Made by a program: the position numbers and the translations under genes. The notes under the pieces were generated by a model. That model was not told the DNA's origin and did not search any database. It saw only the letters and a program-made list of their open reading frames with translations. From an uncultured Thermoproteales archaeon (GTDB lineage Archaea > Thermoproteota > Thermoprotei > Thermoproteales > Thermoproteaceae), in NCBI GenBank assembly GCA_946480885.1, contig CAMLLK010000057.1, positions 1-6,474 of the forward strand: a DNA stretch of 6,474 nt, given 5' to 3'. Shown here piece after piece: positions 1 to 6,474 of the stretch (position 1 is its first letter; each line of letters opens with the position of its first letter).

Positions 1-112
1 GGGAGGGCACTCTTTTAAAAACGTCTATAGACACGACGTATCTCCCCCCCTCTTCTACAACGCGGGCAATGGGCTCGCCCCTTTCGTCAAAAAAGACTTT
101 TGAAATAGGCAC
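1..112 (-). CDS. Partial hypothetical protein, 5' end only
   Basis: An open frame of 37 codons starts at a GTG (110-112) and runs off the left edge without a stop. The encoded N-terminus begins (M)PISKVFFDERGEPIARVV, followed by EEGGRYVVSIDVFKRVPS. The frame is supported by a TATA-like TTTTTAAA 21-28 nt before the GTG, the same geometry as the other genes here. An in-frame TAA at 134-136 lies only seven codons upstream, and no other start codon lies between. The mixed charged and beta-type composition looks like a real protein, but I do not recognise the family and assign no function. A run of seven C (44-50) inside the frame is a possible indel site. The gene lies 28 bp downstream of the surface protein gene on the same strand, so read-through transcription is also possible. 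Confidence 0.5.
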   Translation of the reverse strand, partial: MPISKVFFDERGEPIARVVEEGGRYVVSIDVFKRVPS

Positions 113-132
113 GTGGGTAAAAACTAGAGTGG

Positions 133-140
133 TTTAAAAA
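133..140 (-). promoter_or_regulatory. TATA box of the partial gene at the left edge
   Basis: On the minus strand the sequence reads TTTTTAAA at -28 to -21 relative to the GTG at 112. That spacing puts transcription initiation at or next to the start codon, so the mRNA would be leaderless. The element lies directly after the TAA stop of the surface protein gene (141-143), so its T-tract could also serve as that gene's terminator. Inferred from sequence and spacing only. Confidence 0.45.
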
Positions 141-2018
141 TTAGATTTGTTCAACCTCAGCCACAGGCTCTCTTCTCCTAGCTAAGGCGAAGTAGAGGCC
201 AGCGGCAGATATACCGCCTATCGCCGCCAATGCGTCAAGTGTTGTTATGGGGACGTCGCCTACCATGGCCACTACAGAGGTCTTAACTATCTTCTCAGTG
301 TCTCCAGACACTTCTATAGTCTCTGTGGTTTTTACTCTACCGCCGATATTGACGTGTACTTTATAGACACCGGTTAATACGTCTTGGAAGACCACGGCTC
401 CCGTGGCGTCTGTCTTACCTACGGCTGGGAACCCTTCGAGAGTCACAGTGGCGTCTCCAATGGGCTGGTTCAACGCCCCCACTACCACTACTCTGACTCT
501 ATATATGCCGAGAGTGACTGGAGGCGGAGAGGCGATTAATGAGTTCACTTGTACTTGCGCCGCCTTCACGCCTTTGTAACTTATGTCTACCACAAACGGC
601 TCTGGTCTATAGACTCTAACTTCGACGTAGCCGACGCTTGCCGACGCCTCGAATTTATCTGCCGCCGCTGACAACTGGCCTACTGGTCTACCTCTCGTGT
701 CGACCACAGGTATCCTAACGGGCGTCCATCTGATTAAAAACACATATACGCCGGCCTCTTTGGTATCTCCAATTTGAGCTATGATATATGCTTGACGTCC
801 GTCGGGTGATATAGACGCCGATCTGAGACCGCCGCCCCAGACTAATCTCACATCAGTGGCGTTTGATATAACGGCGTTACCTGGCGTCTTAATCGACACT
901 ATCCTAGCTATTTCTGGGAGTTGCATCACTATTGCAGTCCACTGGCCATCTGCCAAGTCTGCATCTGTTACGTTGACTAGAGCTCTGTCAGGCAGCCATT
1001 TCACAACGGCCTCTTTATACACTAGAGGTATGTATATCAAACTCACTGTCGAGGAGAGTGTAGAGACTACTCTAAAACTTTCGCCATAGACGAGCGCTAT
1101 TTTATACCTAATGTTGAAATTCCACACCGGCGGAACTAAGTAAGACACACTCCTCACGATTATGTTCTGGTTCACGTCAGTCACAACGTCCACTAGACCC
1201 CCCTCGATTGTTATATCTCCCGTGGCCTCTCTGCCTATTATATTAGCGTCACCCGTATACGCAAAGACTACGTAGCCCAACAACCTCCAGCCTTGTGGAA
1301 CTCCCACCTCTGCCCCACTCACTACAAACTCGCCGTTGGGAGAGACAGTGGCAGTTTGTTTTGCCAAACTCTTTACCAACATAGCCGCGGGCATGGAGGG
1401 ACCCGGCGCCACTAGGACTTTGTACCTACCTGGGGCGTTTATTTCAACGACCTTAGGCTCTACTCTATACACAGCGGCTGGAGTCCCGTCGGGCTTCTCA
1501 ACTGCCTTAATTACAAAAGGAGCGTACGGCTCTATAGTAATTCTAGCCATCGCCTGAAAGCCTCTCGGTAGGTTGGACTCCGGCGTGTTTACTTCAATTA
1601 CTGAATCTCCATTGAGCGGTATGTACGACGCCTTTGTGTACATGTATGTTATTCTCATCCTGACCTCAATTTGTTCTCTGGCGGTGTTTACAAGAATTAC
1701 TCTCGACGCGTCGGGGCCTATGTACACTACAGAGACAAAGCCGTTTTGATCAAAGGTCTTACTAACTTGGCCGTCTGCCCCAATTTCAAGAGATGGGTAG
1801 GCGCCTAGGAGTTCAATCTTCATGCCAGTGTATATATACCCCTGGCCAGGCGTTACAGAAGGCCTTGCAAGAGTGGCCACGCCAGCGCCTTGGATTTTTA
1901 ACGTAGTCTCCTCTATTTTATAAGCTATATGTTCTAGTTTAGCATATGGGGGAATTACTACCGTTGTTGCTAAGATCAACGCCGCCAGCCCTAGGGTTAG
2001 TATTAAAATCTTTGACAT
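141..2018 (-). CDS. Secreted, C-terminally membrane-anchored surface protein with Ig-like/carboxypeptidase-regulatory-like domain
   Basis: 625 residues without any cysteine. Residues 3-22 are a hydrophobic Sec-type signal or anchor segment after a short MSK n-region. Residues about 590-612 form a second hydrophobic helix followed by an ARRRE positive stop and a short acidic tail, giving a type I topology with the bulk outside the cell. The body is rich in Val, Thr, Tyr and Gly, as expected of stacked beta-sandwich domains. Residues about 504-585 (from GIYRVRVVVVG, through QPIGDATVTLEG and KTDATGAVVFQDV) have the pattern of a carboxypeptidase-regulatory-like or Cna-B-like fold. A similar G-R-P-V-G turn at 442-447 suggests another such module before it. 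N-glycosylation sequons occur at about N349 (NVT) and N386 (NAT). I do not recognise the N-terminal 440 residues. It could be an S-layer-associated, adhesion or binding protein; no catalytic motif is visible. The ATG at 2018 is supported by a TATA box at -26. It follows the por operon on the same strand but has its own promoter, so a functional link to POR is not implied. Confidence 0.85.
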   Translation of the reverse strand: MSKILILTLGLAALILATTVVIPPYAKLEHIAYKIEETTLKIQGAGVATLARPSVTPGQGYIYTGMKIELLGAYPSLEIGADGQVSKTFDQNGFVSVVYIGPDASRVILVNTAREQIEVRMRITYMYTKASYIPLNGDSVIEVNTPESNLPRGFQAMARITIEPYAPFVIKAVEKPDGTPAAVYRVEPKVVEINAPGRYKVLVAPGPSMPAAMLVKSLAKQTATVSPNGEFVVSGAEVGVPQGWRLLGYVVFAYTGDANIIGREATGDITIEGGLVDVVTDVNQNIIVRSVSYLVPPVWNFNIRYKIALVYGESFRVVSTLSSTVSLIYIPLVYKEAVVKWLPDRALVNVTDADLADGQWTAIVMQLPEIARIVSIKTPGNAVISNATDVRLVWGGGLRSASISPDGRQAYIIAQIGDTKEAGVYVFLIRWTPVRIPVVDTRGRPVGQLSAAADKFEASASVGYVEVRVYRPEPFVVDISYKGVKAAQVQVNSLIASPPPVTLGIYRVRVVVVGALNQPIGDATVTLEGFPAVGKTDATGAVVFQDVLTGVYKVHVNIGGRVKTTETIEVSGDTEKIVKTSVVAMVGDVPITTLDALAAIGGISAAGLYFALARRREPVAEVEQI

Positions 2019-2036
2019 AAATCTATGCCGCGCTCA

Positions 2037-2044
2037 TTATTTAA
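2037..2044 (-). promoter_or_regulatory. TATA box of the surface protein gene
   Basis: The minus strand reads TTAAATAA at -26 to -19 from the ATG at 2018, identical in sequence to the TATA box of porG. The distance implies a start site within a few bases of the ATG and so a leaderless transcript. No Shine-Dalgarno sequence lies between the TATA box and the ATG, which agrees with this. Confidence 0.6.
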
Positions 2045-2055
2045 GATCATCGTGT

Positions 2056-2066
2056 AGACACTGTCT
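2056..2066. promoter_or_regulatory. Palindrome upstream of the surface gene promoter
   Basis: AGACA-C-TGTCT is a perfect odd-centred palindrome, 12 bp upstream of the surface gene TATA box. It could be an operator, an activator site, or part of the por 3' end. It is short and only one copy is present, so the role is speculative. Confidence 0.25.
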
Positions 2067-2070
2067 CAAA

Positions 2071-2085
2071 TTAGTAAAATACTAA
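2071..2085 (-). terminator. Weak hairpin and T-rich end of the por operon
   Basis: The minus strand after the porB stop reads TTAGTA-TTT-TACTAA, a 6-bp A/T-only inverted repeat with a 3-nt loop in a T-rich stretch 18 bp after the stop codon. Archaeal termination relies mainly on T-tracts, so this is a plausible end point for the por transcript. The stem is thermally weak for a hyperthermophile and may be incidental. Confidence 0.3.
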
Positions 2086-2102
2086 AGTAATATGTAGATA
2101 GT

Positions 2103-3047
2103 TTATATTTGACTTAATTTCGCTAAGTATTCCCAATACGCGTCTAGTTCCTTTTCCAATTCTAAAATCTCTTCTTCTGACATGTGTGAAAACCTCCCCT
2201 GTAGTCTCATATATTCTCTAAGCGGTTTTCTCTTCGATTTGTCTACGTGGACATTACTCGGCGGGTTAAGTCTCAACTTGCCGTGGTCCCATTCATACAG
2301 TGGGAAGTAGCCAGTCTCCACTGCCAGTCTAGCCACTTCAATTGTCTTATTCTCTGGGTAGCGCCAACCTGGCACACAGGGGGCAAAAATATGTAGAAAT
2401 GTGGGGCCCTCTTCTGTATACTCAAGAGCCGTCTTTATTTTATTCACCATGTCTAAGATATAGGCTATGCTAGCCGTAGCTGCGTAGGGAATTCTATGGG
2501 CCATCACAATGCCCATTATGTCTTTTTTCCACTGTATCTTTCCCCTCGCCGCCGTCCCTACTGGAGTAGTCGTAGTCCAGGCGTATTTCGGCGTAGAGCC
2601 GCTTCTCTGTATGCCCGTGTTCATATACGCCTCGTTGTCGTAGAGTATATACAACACCCCATGTCTCCTCTCTAACATGCCGCTGAGAGCTTGTAGACCT
2701 ATGTCGTATGTGCCGCCGTCTCCAGCTATGACCACTACTTTAGTGTCTCCAGCCTCCCAAAGGCCTTTTCTCCTTAGCGCCTTTATGGCGGCCTCCACTC
2801 CAGAGGCCACTGCAGCTGAGTTCTCAAACGCCACGTGGATGTAGGGGTGCATCCACGCAGTCTCGGGATATGGCGTCGTGGTGACTTCTACACAGCCCGT
2901 GGCGTTGGCAATCACAGCGTTTGGACCTACGGCCTTAGTGATCCACCTCATAGCCACCGCGGCGCCGCAGCCTGCACACATCCTATGGCCGGGGGCGAAT
3001 AATTCCTCCCGAGGGAGGTCTCTCAAAGTTTTGTAATAGATCTTCAT
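2103..3047 (-). CDS. porB: Pyruvate/2-oxoacid:ferredoxin oxidoreductase, beta subunit
   Basis: 314 residues, the usual length for the archaeal beta subunit. It binds thiamine diphosphate (TPP) and the proximal [4Fe-4S] cluster, and with alpha catalyses pyruvate + CoA to acetyl-CoA + CO2 with ferredoxin reduction in the cytoplasm. The TPP/Mg motif is visible as GDGGTYDIG (109-117), ending at N138 in YDNEAY. The four family cluster cysteines are present: C24 and C27 in MCAGCG, C52 in TGCVEV and C224 in APCVPGW. No other cysteine occurs. The ATG overlaps the porA stop as ATGA, and a Shine-Dalgarno-like GGTGAG (3051-3056) lies 3 nt before it, the only clear one in the operon. It is the last gene of porGDAB. 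Substrate choice (pyruvate versus branched-chain 2-oxoacids) cannot be fixed from sequence alone; pyruvate is the most likely. Confidence 0.95.
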   Translation of the reverse strand: MKIYYKTLRDLPREELFAPGHRMCAGCGAAVAMRWITKAVGPNAVIANATGCVEVTTTPYPETAWMHPYIHVAFENSAAVASGVEAAIKALRRKGLWEAGDTKVVVIAGDGGTYDIGLQALSGMLERRHGVLYILYDNEAYMNTGIQRSGSTPKYAWTTTTPVGTAARGKIQWKKDIMGIVMAHRIPYAATASIAYILDMVNKIKTALEYTEEGPTFLHIFAPCVPGWRYPENKTIEVARLAVETGYFPLYEWDHGKLRLNPPSNVHVDKSKRKPLREYMRLQGRFSHMSEEEILELEKELDAYWEYLAKLSQI

Positions 3048-4225
3048 ACCCTCACCCCCATGAACACCACCTCTCTCCTAGGACTCTCTCTCAACATCTG
3101 GAATATTTTATATATATCTTCTACGTAGATAGTCCTCTGGCCGATGCCGTGTATTATATTCATCCCCGGCGTGTTTAGTCCATGTAGATACATAGCCACA
3201 GCTATGTCTTTATATAAAGGCCCCTCCGCGGGGCTGCCGTACATAATCGCTCTGTCTAACACGGCGAATGCCTTGACCCCGGCCAAAGTCTTCACTACGT
3301 CTTCTGTGGGGAACGGCCTGTAGAGTCTTATCCTCAAAACCCCGGCGGCTATGCCCCTCTCTCTCGCCATGTCGACAGCCGCTCTGGCGTTGCCGTAGGA
3401 GACGCCTCCGTAGGTCACTACTACGTAGTCAGCGTCTTCCACGCGGTATCCCTCCACTACGCCGTATCCACGGCCGAATTTAGATCTGTATTCACTATCT
3501 ACCTCTCTCACAGCCTTATAGGCCTCTTTCATAGCCTCTACTTGTTGATATTTAAATTCATAGTACCAATCGGGAGAGGTCAAGGGGCCTAGAGTCACCG
3601 GTCTGCGGGGGTCTAGGACATGTGGAATTTTTCTACGTGGTAGAAACCTCCTCACATCTTCTTCGTCATTCAGCTCTACTGGCTCAAGAGTGTGGCTCAT
3701 TAAAAAGCCGTCGTAGGCAACCATCACTGGGAGGTAGATAGATTCAGCCACTCTATAGGCTTGTATGAGGGAGTCGTACACCTCTTGTGCAGAAGCGGCT
3801 ATGTAAATTACCCAGCCTGTGTCTCTTGCGTTCATTAAGTCGCTGTAGTCGTTGTGTATACTTATGGGAGCGGAGACTGCCCTCGTGGGCAGAGCCATGA
3901 CTATAGGTAACCTCAGCCCACTGGCTATGTGGAGGACTTCGTGGGCTAGCTCTAGCCCTTGGCTCGACGTGGCTGTAAATACTCTGGCGCCAGCCGCGGC
4001 GGCGCCTACAACTGCAGAGAGTGCAGAATGTTCAGACTCGACGTGTATCAACTCTGCGTTTAACTCGCCGTTGGATACAAACTCCGATAGTTTCTCCACT
4101 ATGGTGGTCTGGGGGGTGATGGGGTACACCGCTATTACGTCTACATCGGCGGCTTTTACTGCATACGCCGCTGCGTAGTTGCTAGTCAACGCCTCTTTTA
4201 ATTTTGCTCTCTGTATCTGTATCAT
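3044..4225 (-). CDS. porA: Pyruvate/2-oxoacid:ferredoxin oxidoreductase, alpha subunit
   Basis: 393 residues from the ATG at 4223-4225. The subunit forms the 2-oxoacid- and TPP-pyrimidine-side domains paired with PorB. Family signatures are YPITPQTTIVEKL (34-46), the VESEHSAL segment (62-69) and TATSSQGLELAHE (84-96). A middle linker PLTSPDWYYEFKYQQVEAM and a C-terminal GIGQR near the GGR position of other PorA proteins are also typical. No cysteine is present, as expected for alpha. A longer frame begins at an ATG at 4274-4276, but the extra 17 residues (MRQRVSHKGYRNGARDA) lie wholly inside porD, while the chosen ATG forms the same ATGA overlap (4222-4225) seen at the other two por junctions. 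Translation is therefore probably coupled to porD. Only a weak GGTG lies upstream, with no strong ribosome site. Confidence 0.93.
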   Translation of the reverse strand: MIQIQRAKLKEALTSNYAAAYAVKAADVDVIAVYPITPQTTIVEKLSEFVSNGELNAELIHVESEHSALSAVVGAAAAGARVFTATSSQGLELAHEVLHIASGLRLPIVMALPTRAVSAPISIHNDYSDLMNARDTGWVIYIAASAQEVYDSLIQAYRVAESIYLPVMVAYDGFLMSHTLEPVELNDEEDVRRFLPRRKIPHVLDPRRPVTLGPLTSPDWYYEFKYQQVEAMKEAYKAVREVDSEYRSKFGRGYGVVEGYRVEDADYVVVTYGGVSYGNARAAVDMARERGIAAGVLRIRLYRPFPTEDVVKTLAGVKAFAVLDRAIMYGSPAEGPLYKDIAVAMYLHGLNTPGMNIIHGIGQRTIYVEDIYKIFQMLRESPRREVVFMGVRV

Positions 4226-4533
4226 GGCGTCTCTGGCACCATTTCTATAGCCTTTGTGGGACACTCGTTGGCGCATATGCCACAGCCTTTACAGTAGTCG
4301 TAGTCTATTTCGTACTTAACATCGTAGGTCCTACCCCCCACTTTGTAGACCCCCCTCTTTTCTATTATCGTCCCCTCTGGGCAGTAGATCCAACATAATT
4401 GACACCTAACACATCTCTCGTCGTGTATTACAGGCCTCAACGTCCTCCATCCCGCTGTTAAATTACGTCTAGTAGAACCTGGCTCCGTCACGGCGGCGCC
4501 TATGGGCAGTTGGTTATACTTCGGCAAAGTCAT
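4222..4533 (-). CDS. porD: Pyruvate/2-oxoacid:ferredoxin oxidoreductase, delta subunit (2[4Fe-4S] ferredoxin-like)
   Basis: 103 residues. It carries the two [4Fe-4S] clusters that pass electrons from the PorB cluster to external ferredoxin. The first ligand set is C41, C44, C47 and C51 (CVRCQLCWIYCPEG). The second is C81, C84, C87 and C91 (CKGCGICANECPTKAIEM). All eight ligands are intact. The N-terminal TAGWRTLRPVI segment (26-36) is the conserved lead-in of PorD proteins and separates this from an ordinary ferredoxin. The ATG (4531-4533) overlaps the porG stop and the TGA (4222-4224) overlaps the porA start, both as ATGA, so equimolar synthesis by translational coupling is likely. Confidence 0.95.
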   Translation of the reverse strand: MTLPKYNQLPIGAAVTEPGSTRRNLTAGWRTLRPVIHDERCVRCQLCWIYCPEGTIIEKRGVYKVGGRTYDVKYEIDYDYCKGCGICANECPTKAIEMVPETP

Positions 4534-5057
4534 AGCTCTCTAGTCTCTCTATACGCCTCTTGTACAAGCCTTAGGTTGACTTCGTACAACTTGCCGGTGA
4601 AGTACTTCCCCAGGGCTTTGGCCACAGAGTCGAGGCTTACGACATGTGTGGCTTTCACCACGGCGCCTATAAGCGCTGTGTTTACTATAGGCCTCCCTAA
4701 GATTTTCATAGACAGAGAAGTGGCGTCTACATAATAAGTCTTTAAATGCGTCTTATAGAGGCCGTTTATGACTAAGACCGTGGTCTCTTTAGAGCCGTCT
4801 AGTAGATTCTCTGCTTTGAATAGAGACTGGTCCGCCACTACTATTACATCAGGCCTCATTATAGGCTCTCTAATATATATCGGGCTCTCTGAGATGCGGA
4901 GATATGACCTCACAGGAGCGCCTCTACGCTCTGGGCCGAACTCGGGAAACGCCTGGGCGTATCTCCCCTCTATTATAGCAGCCGTGGCTAATACTTGAGC
5001 CGCAGTGACTATGCCCTGTCCACCTCTGCCATGGAGCCGAATCTCAAATAGACCCAT
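4530..5057 (-). CDS. porG: Pyruvate/2-oxoacid:ferredoxin oxidoreductase, gamma subunit
   Basis: 175 residues, the normal size for the gamma subunit, which supplies the CoA-handling domain of the four-subunit enzyme. The signatures are LHGRGGQGIVTAAQ (8-21) and AFPEFGPERRGAPVR (36-50), both diagnostic of the PorG/VorC/KorC family. The rest is an alternating alpha/beta Rossmann-like fold with VIVVADQSL in the middle. There are no cysteines. It is the first gene of the operon. Its ATG has no Shine-Dalgarno sequence but has a TATA box at -27 to -20, so the operon mRNA probably begins at this start codon. The stop overlaps porD as ATGA. Confidence 0.94.
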   Translation of the reverse strand: MGLFEIRLHGRGGQGIVTAAQVLATAAIIEGRYAQAFPEFGPERRGAPVRSYLRISESPIYIREPIMRPDVIVVADQSLFKAENLLDGSKETTVLVINGLYKTHLKTYYVDATSLSMKILGRPIVNTALIGAVVKATHVVSLDSVAKALGKYFTGKLYEVNLRLVQEAYRETREL

Positions 5058-5061
5058 GTAG

Positions 5062-5073
5062 TAGATATATCTA
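5062..5073. repeat. 12-bp perfect palindrome before porG
   Basis: TAGATATATCTA lies between the porG TATA box and its ATG, at -5 to -16. A repressor bound here would block transcription initiation. It is pure A/T apart from two G:C pairs, so chance occurrence in this AT-rich spacer is quite possible. Confidence 0.25.
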
Positions 5074-5076
5074 TTA

Positions 5077-5084
5077 TTATTTAA
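5077..5084 (-). promoter_or_regulatory. TATA box of the porGDAB operon
   Basis: The minus strand reads TTAAATAA at -27 to -20 from the porG ATG, preceded by AAGG where a TFB recognition element would lie. This spacing predicts a leaderless operon mRNA. The same 9 bases, including the preceding G, recur inverted on the plus strand at 5106-5114. Confidence 0.6.
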
Positions 5085-5114
5085 CCTTATCTATCTCGCC
5101 ACACCGTTAAATAA
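5077..5114. repeat. Inverted repeat containing the porG TATA box
   Basis: TTATTTAAC (5077-5085) and GTTAAATAA (5106-5114) are perfect 9-bp inverted copies with a 20-bp spacer. The left arm contains the porG TATA box. The right arm is a TATA-like element facing the NifX-like gene. It could be a dimeric regulator site or an alternative promoter for the divergent gene. The A/T richness weakens the case. Confidence 0.35.
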
Positions 5115-5137
5115 GTTTTAACAAATTAGTGAAAAAT

Positions 5138-5145
5138 TTTAAATA
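5138..5145 (+). promoter_or_regulatory. TATA box of the NifX-like gene
   Basis: TTTAAATA lies at -27 to -20 from the ATG at 5165, with A-rich GAAAAA just before it as a possible TFB recognition element. The distance matches that of porG on the other strand, so both divergent transcripts are probably leaderless. Confidence 0.6.
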
Positions 5146-5164
5146 GATAAAACGACGTGGTGTC

Positions 5165-5515
5165 ATGCGTATATTAATTCCCGTAGACAAAGCCGCCGGG
5201 CTAGATTCCCCAGTCTCTGACGAATTTGGCAGAGCTCCATATTTCCTAATCTACGACGGAGGGAGAGTTGAAATTTATCGAAATGAAGAAGTAGTGAAGG
5301 GAGTTAGGCATAGGTGGGAGGAGATTCTACAACTCAAACCCGACGTGGTTATAACTAGAGAAATCGGCAGGCCGGCATACCACGCCTTTAGAGGACTTGG
5401 CATCTCTATATATTTAGCAGAGGGCAACACTGTGAGAGAAGTAATTGAAAAATTTGAAAAGAGACAACTCAAAGAGTTTCCCCCAGATCTAGTACACGAG
5501 CCTAGACACCACTAA
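5165..5515 (+). CDS. NifX/NifB-type domain protein (dinitrogenase iron-molybdenum cofactor biosynthesis family)
   Basis: 116 residues matching the small single-domain NifX-like family: N-terminal MRILIPVD, then SPVSDEFGRAPYFLIYD (15-31), a central KPDVVITREIG (58-68) and GLGISIYLAEGNTVREVIE (78-95). In nitrogen fixers, relatives carry FeMo-cofactor precursors. In non-diazotrophic archaea, stand-alone members are common and of unknown function, with cluster or metal-cofactor binding usually suspected. There is no cysteine. The tail ends HEPRHH, a histidine cluster that could bind metal. It is transcribed divergently from porG and converges on the GAPOR gene, overlapping that gene's 3' end by 14 bp. 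Given the neighbour, a role in tungstopterin or Fe-S supply is an attractive but unproven inference. No nif genes are visible, so a nitrogenase role is unlikely. Confidence 0.85.
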   Translation: MRILIPVDKAAGLDSPVSDEFGRAPYFLIYDGGRVEIYRNEEVVKGVRHRWEEILQLKPDVVITREIGRPAYHAFRGLGISIYLAEGNTVREVIEKFEKRQLKEFPPDLVHEPRHH

Positions 5516-6434
5516 ACAGTAGCTTATCTAAACTCTCTTTGTATTTTATCCACCATTCGTAATAGTCGTCGTAGTCTATAAACCTCCAATCCTTTGCCCC
5601 AAGCTCTGCGGCTAGTGTAGACACGATGTCTCTAGTCCTCTTACTCTCCCAAGGCATAGGCTCCGCCCCCGCTAGTTTTGAATAATAAGCAATGGCTCTG
5701 TATATATCCGCCGTGGGCATCTCCAGCCCCACTAGTTGGTATAGATCTTTCAACACCGGCTCTGCCCAGCCTCTGTGGAATCTACAAATCCCGGCGTTGT
5801 CTATAAAGCTCTCCGCCACCGCCCTCTCGTAAGAAGACTTGGCGAACTCTTCTGGAGACATAAAAGTGGGGTTGTAGTTCGTCCAGTACCTCCCTTGGAT
5901 ATACATAGGCGCCACGAGGCCCGGCGCCCAGTAGAAATTAGGCGTCATATACCCCTCCGAGCCGTATGCGGCGTAGACCGCCAAGTCTCTAAACCTAACC
6001 CCCACGGCTCTTACTCGGTCTTGGAATTTTCTCTCTAATTCTCTAGCCGCCTTCCTCACGCCAAGTTCTGCCACTAGCCGCAACACCTCTGTTGAGTTGG
6101 CCACAAAGCCCTCGATGAGTTTCAAAGCCAGTCTGGCGTTTTTAATTGAGTCTCTACCTGGGTCAAACGCCGTAGGTTCAAAAGAAGGCACTTCGTCTAT
6201 GCCCACCTCCTCTGGTTTTAAAAGCCCGTGGTGCACGGCGTCGAAGAGCCACGCCACTACGTGGCCTATCTCAATTGCGTCTAGCCCAAGTCGGTCGATT
6301 TTGTCTATTAAAGGCACGGCCTCTTCGAATATATAATTGCCTATGAAGGGCCCCACTGCGTGGAAAGATTCATAGTCTACTTTTTTACCTCTCCAAACTT
6401 TTTTACACACCACTGGACATGGCTCGCCGCAGTT
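5502..6434 (-). CDS. gor: Glyceraldehyde-3-phosphate:ferredoxin oxidoreductase (GAPOR), C-terminal half, 5' end missing
   Basis: 310 residues, about half of a family whose members are around 600-650 residues. GAPOR is a tungstopterin [4Fe-4S] enzyme that oxidises glyceraldehyde-3-phosphate directly to 3-phosphoglycerate and reduces ferredoxin. The fragment begins with NCGEPCPVVCKK, the C-x3-C-x3-C cluster motif typical of GAPOR (classical AOR has C-x2-C-x3-C). It continues with GPFIG, GLDAIEIG, HHGLLKPEEVGIDEVPSFEP and ICRFHRGW. From memory these match the Pyrococcus GAPOR (CGEPCPVVCKK, GFDAIEFG, GLLKPEEVGISDVPEF, CRFHRGW). The cysteine in CRFHRGW is the likely fourth cluster ligand. A GTG at 6411-6413 would give a 303-residue frame, but it lies inside the cluster motif and is not a real start. 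The coding sequence stops at 6434 only because adapter sequence begins at 6435. The frame stays open through the adapter, so automated calls may add false residues. The TAG stop (5502-5504) lies inside the end of the NifX-like gene. Confidence 0.9.
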   Translation of the reverse strand, partial: NCGEPCPVVCKKVWRGKKVDYESFHAVGPFIGNYIFEEAVPLIDKIDRLGLDAIEIGHVVAWLFDAVHHGLLKPEEVGIDEVPSFEPTAFDPGRDSIKNARLALKLIEGFVANSTEVLRLVAELGVRKAARELERKFQDRVRAVGVRFRDLAVYAAYGSEGYMTPNFYWAPGLVAPMYIQGRYWTNYNPTFMSPEEFAKSSYERAVAESFIDNAGICRFHRGWAEPVLKDLYQLVGLEMPTADIYRAIAYYSKLAGAEPMPWESKRTRDIVSTLAAELGAKDWRFIDYDDYYEWWIKYKESLDKLLFSGV

Positions 6435-6474
6435 AGATCGGAAGAGCGTCGTGTAGGGAAAGAGGGTGGGTGGG
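6435..6474. other. Illumina TruSeq adapter read-through (not genomic)
   Basis: From 6435 the sequence begins AGATCGGAAGAGC and goes on as GTCGTGTAGGGAAAGAG, identical over 30 bases (6435-6464) to the start of the TruSeq adapter seen at the 3' end of read 2, the reverse complement of the read 1 primer site. The last ten bases, GGTGGGTGGG, replace the expected TGTAGATCTC. All six differences are changes to G, as expected when signal fades on two-colour instruments. The whole 40-base tail is therefore artefact and should be trimmed. Confidence 0.97.

Follow-up and report, generated by a model that had tools for sequence, protein, structure and literature searches.

A sequencing adapter left on the right end of an archaeal GAPOR-like gene fragment

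The right edge of the stretch of archaeal DNA analysed here (the window, 6,474 bases) is crossed by an open frame that runs to the last bases without a stop. The final 40 bases (6435-6474) read AGATCGGAAGAGCGTCGTGTAGGGAAAGAG followed by GGTGGGTGGG. The reference for comparison was the TruSeq Read-2 read-through adapter in its universal, single-index form. In an ungapped comparison the first 30 bases (6435-6464, + strand) matched this adapter exactly at 30/30 positions, and the ten bases of the G-rich tail (6465-6474, + strand) showed six mismatches to it, every one to G. An exact 30-mer of this kind has a chance expectation of ~1.8e-15 at the base composition of the window. The preliminary description, which had placed an untrimmed TruSeq adapter with 30 equal bases at these coordinates and had counted six mismatches to G in the last ten, is borne out on alignment in identity, position and count. 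A search of both strands with the 13-base adapter core at up to three mismatches returned this single site in the whole window; 1.77 such sites are expected in shuffled sequence, so that the 13-mer alone is not significant and it is the exact 30-mer that is. The adapter runs 5' to 3' toward the window end, the orientation needed for read-through.

We conclude that the final 40 bases are almost certainly sequencing adapter left on an archaeal gene fragment, and thus a laboratory artefact. The junction between real and adapter sequence is at 6434/6435, and the tail GGTGGGTGGG, which comes from the 3' end of the read, is degraded adapter, an index read or base-calling noise. Because of the adapter and this junction, we infer that the window edge is also the contig edge, in agreement with what had been proposed before. 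Base 6435 could also be genomic, since an A would stand there as well if the Tyr codon were TAT. Part of the adapter together with the tail (6456-6474, GGGAAAGAGGGTGGGTGGG) spells by chance what looks by eye like a G-quadruplex motif, which carries no biological meaning because the bases are artefactual.

The gene that meets the adapter lies on the minus strand at 5502-6434, a genuine stretch predicted from its profile and protein matches to encode the C-terminal half (310 codons and stop) of an AOR-family, GAPOR-like oxidoreductase of a Pyrobaculum-like archaeon, the gene being cut by the contig end. The fragment lies above the Pfam gathering cut-off for PF01314 (aldehyde ferredoxin oxidoreductase family; 57.4 bits vs a cut-off of 27, E=1.9e-15) and scores 233 bits against NF040818, the NCBIfam GAPOR equivalog, which has a cut-off of 1300 bits. 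Since the full-length relative P0001 (from locus L003, Pyrobaculum oguniense) also reaches only 465 bits against this model, "GAPOR-like" seems a safer label than "GAPOR"; the name GAPOR given earlier is fair by similarity, but the scores of both the fragment and the full-length relative fall short of the equivalog. Some relatives are named glyceraldehyde-3-phosphate dehydrogenase (ferredoxin) by JGI, and the nearest named genome loci are those of Pyrobaculum (L001-L003) at 79-81% protein identity. Among solved structures, only a Haloferax tungsten-dependent aldehyde oxidoreductase was matched, and that weakly (E=0.00016).

Relatives of this protein reveal what the adapter has displaced. P0050, a protein of 619 aa found by a search with P0001, is identical to the window over its C-terminal 310 residues (310/310), and upstream of the shared residues it continues with FQIEVFEKSKSWY, showing EVFEKSKSWY where the window has PYTTLFRS. 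In place of FQIEVFEKSKSWY the open frame of the window carries the 13 residues PPTLFPYTTLFRS, a false N-terminal extension encoded by adapter and tail (6435-6473, minus strand). All 26 related genome loci have Trp at residue -2 from the junction and the gene's own N-terminal half directly upstream of it. In 3 of the 26 the gene is not one unbroken, full-length stretch: L002 is truncated by a contig end, and L001 and L025 are in two frames. In the latter pair the N-terminal half is divided between two frames at L001:6075-7000 (Pyrobaculum sp. WP30) and L025:6057-7000 (Vulcanisaeta distributa JCM 11217), the result of either a frameshift or an error in sequencing. At the DNA level, the match to the 26 loci extends to 6434 in 5 of them and to 6435 in 3, each of which has TAT as the Tyr codon; it ends earlier in 18 and passes 6435 in 0/26. 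The peptide TTLFRS is absent from all 151 related proteins examined, which comprise P0001 and 150 proteins from two protein searches (one of which gave 120 of 601 matches). In this wider set, 146 proteins have alignments that start close to the junction and 13 residues upstream of it, 5 of the 151 being left out; Trp occurs at -2 in 115 of the 146. No mention of the adapter peptide PYTTLFRS was found in the literature searched; HSFPTRRSSD, one of three longer adapter peptides searched, turns up there once, in a single paper. TruSeq read-through contamination is recognized here by an exact adapter longer than chance would give (30/30 bases), by its outward direction at the presumed contig end (6435-6464, + strand) and by its replacement of sequence that is continued in relatives (P0050; 26/26 loci).

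These comparisons bear directly on the possibility that the 40 bases are genuine oxidoreductase coding sequence, resembling the adapter by chance or convergence. The open frame continues through the adapter to the window end without a stop, as genuine coding would have it, but the adapter is open in 5/6 frames anyway: it is stop-free in 3/3 minus-strand and 2/3 plus-strand frames, and because it has no stops in the minus-strand frames the oxidoreductase frame runs straight into it. For the same reason, the adapter being open in all three minus-strand frames, a gene finder that relies on open frames may take adapter-bearing contig ends for coding. Set against the chance expectation given above, and against an identical protein and 26/26 related loci that differ at this place, genuine coding is vanishingly improbable; relatives continuing the 40 bases as coding sequence, which the preliminary description had named as the observation that would overturn it, did not appear, and the comparison with related sequences favours the adapter reading instead. 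A synthetic or vector construct, in which the adapter would sit beside a cloned archaeal fragment, has nothing but the adapter itself in its favour. The window is instead collinear with two chromosomes of the Pyrobaculum order, aligning to L160 over 8-6434 (five pieces) and to L159 over 15-6434 (two pieces), and the adapter is confined to the window end, all of which makes a construct exceedingly improbable.

Read-through into adapter is the explanation that we hold overall with near certainty, and it starts from what was observed directly, namely the sequence identity, the orientation, the junction and the genuine sequence displaced, as seen in the identical protein and in relatives. Nothing was found that speaks against the identity of the adapter. 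At the level of individual reads, a sequenced fragment ending at about base 6434 would have been shorter than the read, the Read-2 read would have continued past its end into the TruSeq adapter ligated there, the trimming step would have missed the adapter, and the assembler would have carried the contig into it and then stopped. On this account the last 40 bases are not archaeal DNA, because the read passed into adapter and the contig was extended there, and they both cut the GAPOR-like gene and add the false extension of 13 residues.

The artefact appears confined to one end of the window, on the evidence of alignment. The left 60 bases showed no clear match above shuffles to six TruSeq/Nextera strings (at the lowest, a fraction of 0.07 of 300 shuffles scored as high), and the left end is collinear with relatives from base 8 (L160) and base 15 (L159), with bases 1-7 outside the alignment; a left-end adapter was ruled out on these two grounds. 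Since the left end aligns to L160 and L159, only the right end looks artefactual. The 30-mer was found in 0/4 genomes of relatives at up to two mismatches and in 0/45 genomes of the order of L003 at up to one mismatch, the 4 relatives included.

The same 30-mer recurs in viral contigs. A scan of IMG/VR returned at least 120 stretches, of which we examined 80 loci holding 83 copies. Like the copy in the window, 82/83 of these are terminal and face outward toward the nearer contig end, the exception being L097, and 73/83 lie at most 43 bases from that end, among the matches listed. The window differs from many of them in what follows: 27 of the 44 outward copies with at least ten further bases match the single-index adapter exactly for as far as they were compared, again among the matches listed, and the GG that follows the 30-mer in the window is shared by only 6 stretches of the IMG/VR collection. 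Four of these (L070, L156, L157 and L158) differ from the adapter at the first of the ten bases only, L155 has five mismatches in ten bases, three of them to G, and L058 is the nearest of the six to the window in G bias. Moeller et al. 2024 (PMC11536531) give 1110 of 15,657 MGnify species reference assemblies as adapter-enriched at p < 0.01, with ~157 expected by chance, and the adapter copies as concentrated at contig ends. The same paper quotes both the adapter core and its reverse-specific part, and the window shares with these cases the common core AGATCGGAAGAG followed by the reverse-specific CGTCGTGTAGGGAAAGAG, forward at the right contig end. Their sample, described there as MGnify genomes from animal and human sites and marine samples, differs from the window, and the G-rich tail sets the window apart from the cases it describes in a minor way only. 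Given the viral-contig copies and these published figures, a TruSeq adapter at contig ends is an already known and common artefact, published for microbial genomes.

The composition of the tail had also been read as the signature of two-colour chemistry, with dark-cycle G calls; the data would then come from a NextSeq or NovaSeq-type machine. All six of the tail mismatches are to G, the G-rich tail sits at the 3' end of the read direction, and mismatches to G alone are unusual, given 35/96 to G over all 82 outward viral copies, index-bearing copies included, among the matches listed. Two-colour systems call G where signal is absent (PMC5217569, PMC6637168). Against this, in L058 all five mismatches within the corresponding ten bases are to G, and poly-A follows. 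A run-off into poly-A, which we take to mark four-colour data and to be the counterpart of two-colour G, ends 18 adapter copies among the matches listed; over the next 28 adapter bases G accounts for 26 of their 45 mismatches, contributed by 9 of these copies. The last 18 bases of the adapter followed by six Gs occur in 0 viral contigs, a weak negative, as trimming or assembly may remove such ends. The two Ts of the tail, at positions 3 and 7, do fall on Ts of the adapter, but given 8 G and 2 T this placement has p = 0.13, and because of this the reading of the last ten bases as degraded single-index adapter is itself weak. The template of the ten bases is uncertain as well: L031, L069 and L081 carry eight other bases after TGT, followed by GTGTAGA, among the matches listed, and we read these eight as an index, which makes an index another possible template for the tail. 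We place the two-colour origin close to an even proposition, on its doubtful side; as a signature it is not established, and the sequencing chemistry cannot be told from the tail at 6465-6474. More tentative still, and in our judgement somewhat unlikely, is the conjecture that a G-only tip reflects a decaying two-colour signal inside the adapter; if it were true, contig-end adapter tails could reveal the sequencing chemistry of unlabelled assemblies.

The remainder of the window holds further genes beside the truncated one. A small protein of the dinitrogenase Fe-Mo-cofactor type (PF02579; 5165-5515, + strand) is convergent with the AOR-family gene and overlaps its 3' end; tblastn within the fetched stretches placed it in 3/26 loci, all Pyrobaculum (L001-L003), and it could possibly act as a metal-cofactor carrier for the adjoining AOR-family gene. 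Also beside the GAPOR-like gene lies a four-subunit cluster of pyruvate-type ferredoxin oxidoreductase (PorB, PorA, PorD, PorC; 2103-5057, minus strand), and PorA and PorB occur in the same fetched stretch in 6/26 loci (L001-L006). A protein of 625 aa (141-2018, minus strand) has a carboxypeptidase-regulatory-like stretch at 508-575 (PF13620, E=3.1e-05, below the curated cut-off) and no match in an NCBIfam search; to the eye its C-terminal end holds a hydrophobic segment and its N-terminus a probable signal segment, and it is likely a surface protein.

The importance of the adapter is solely one of data hygiene. As a laboratory artefact without biological meaning, the 40 bases and the peptide they encode call for removal: the contig needs cutting back to 6434, with loss of 6435-6474, and PPTLFPYTTLFRS must be left off the N-terminus of the GAPOR-like protein in any deposited record.
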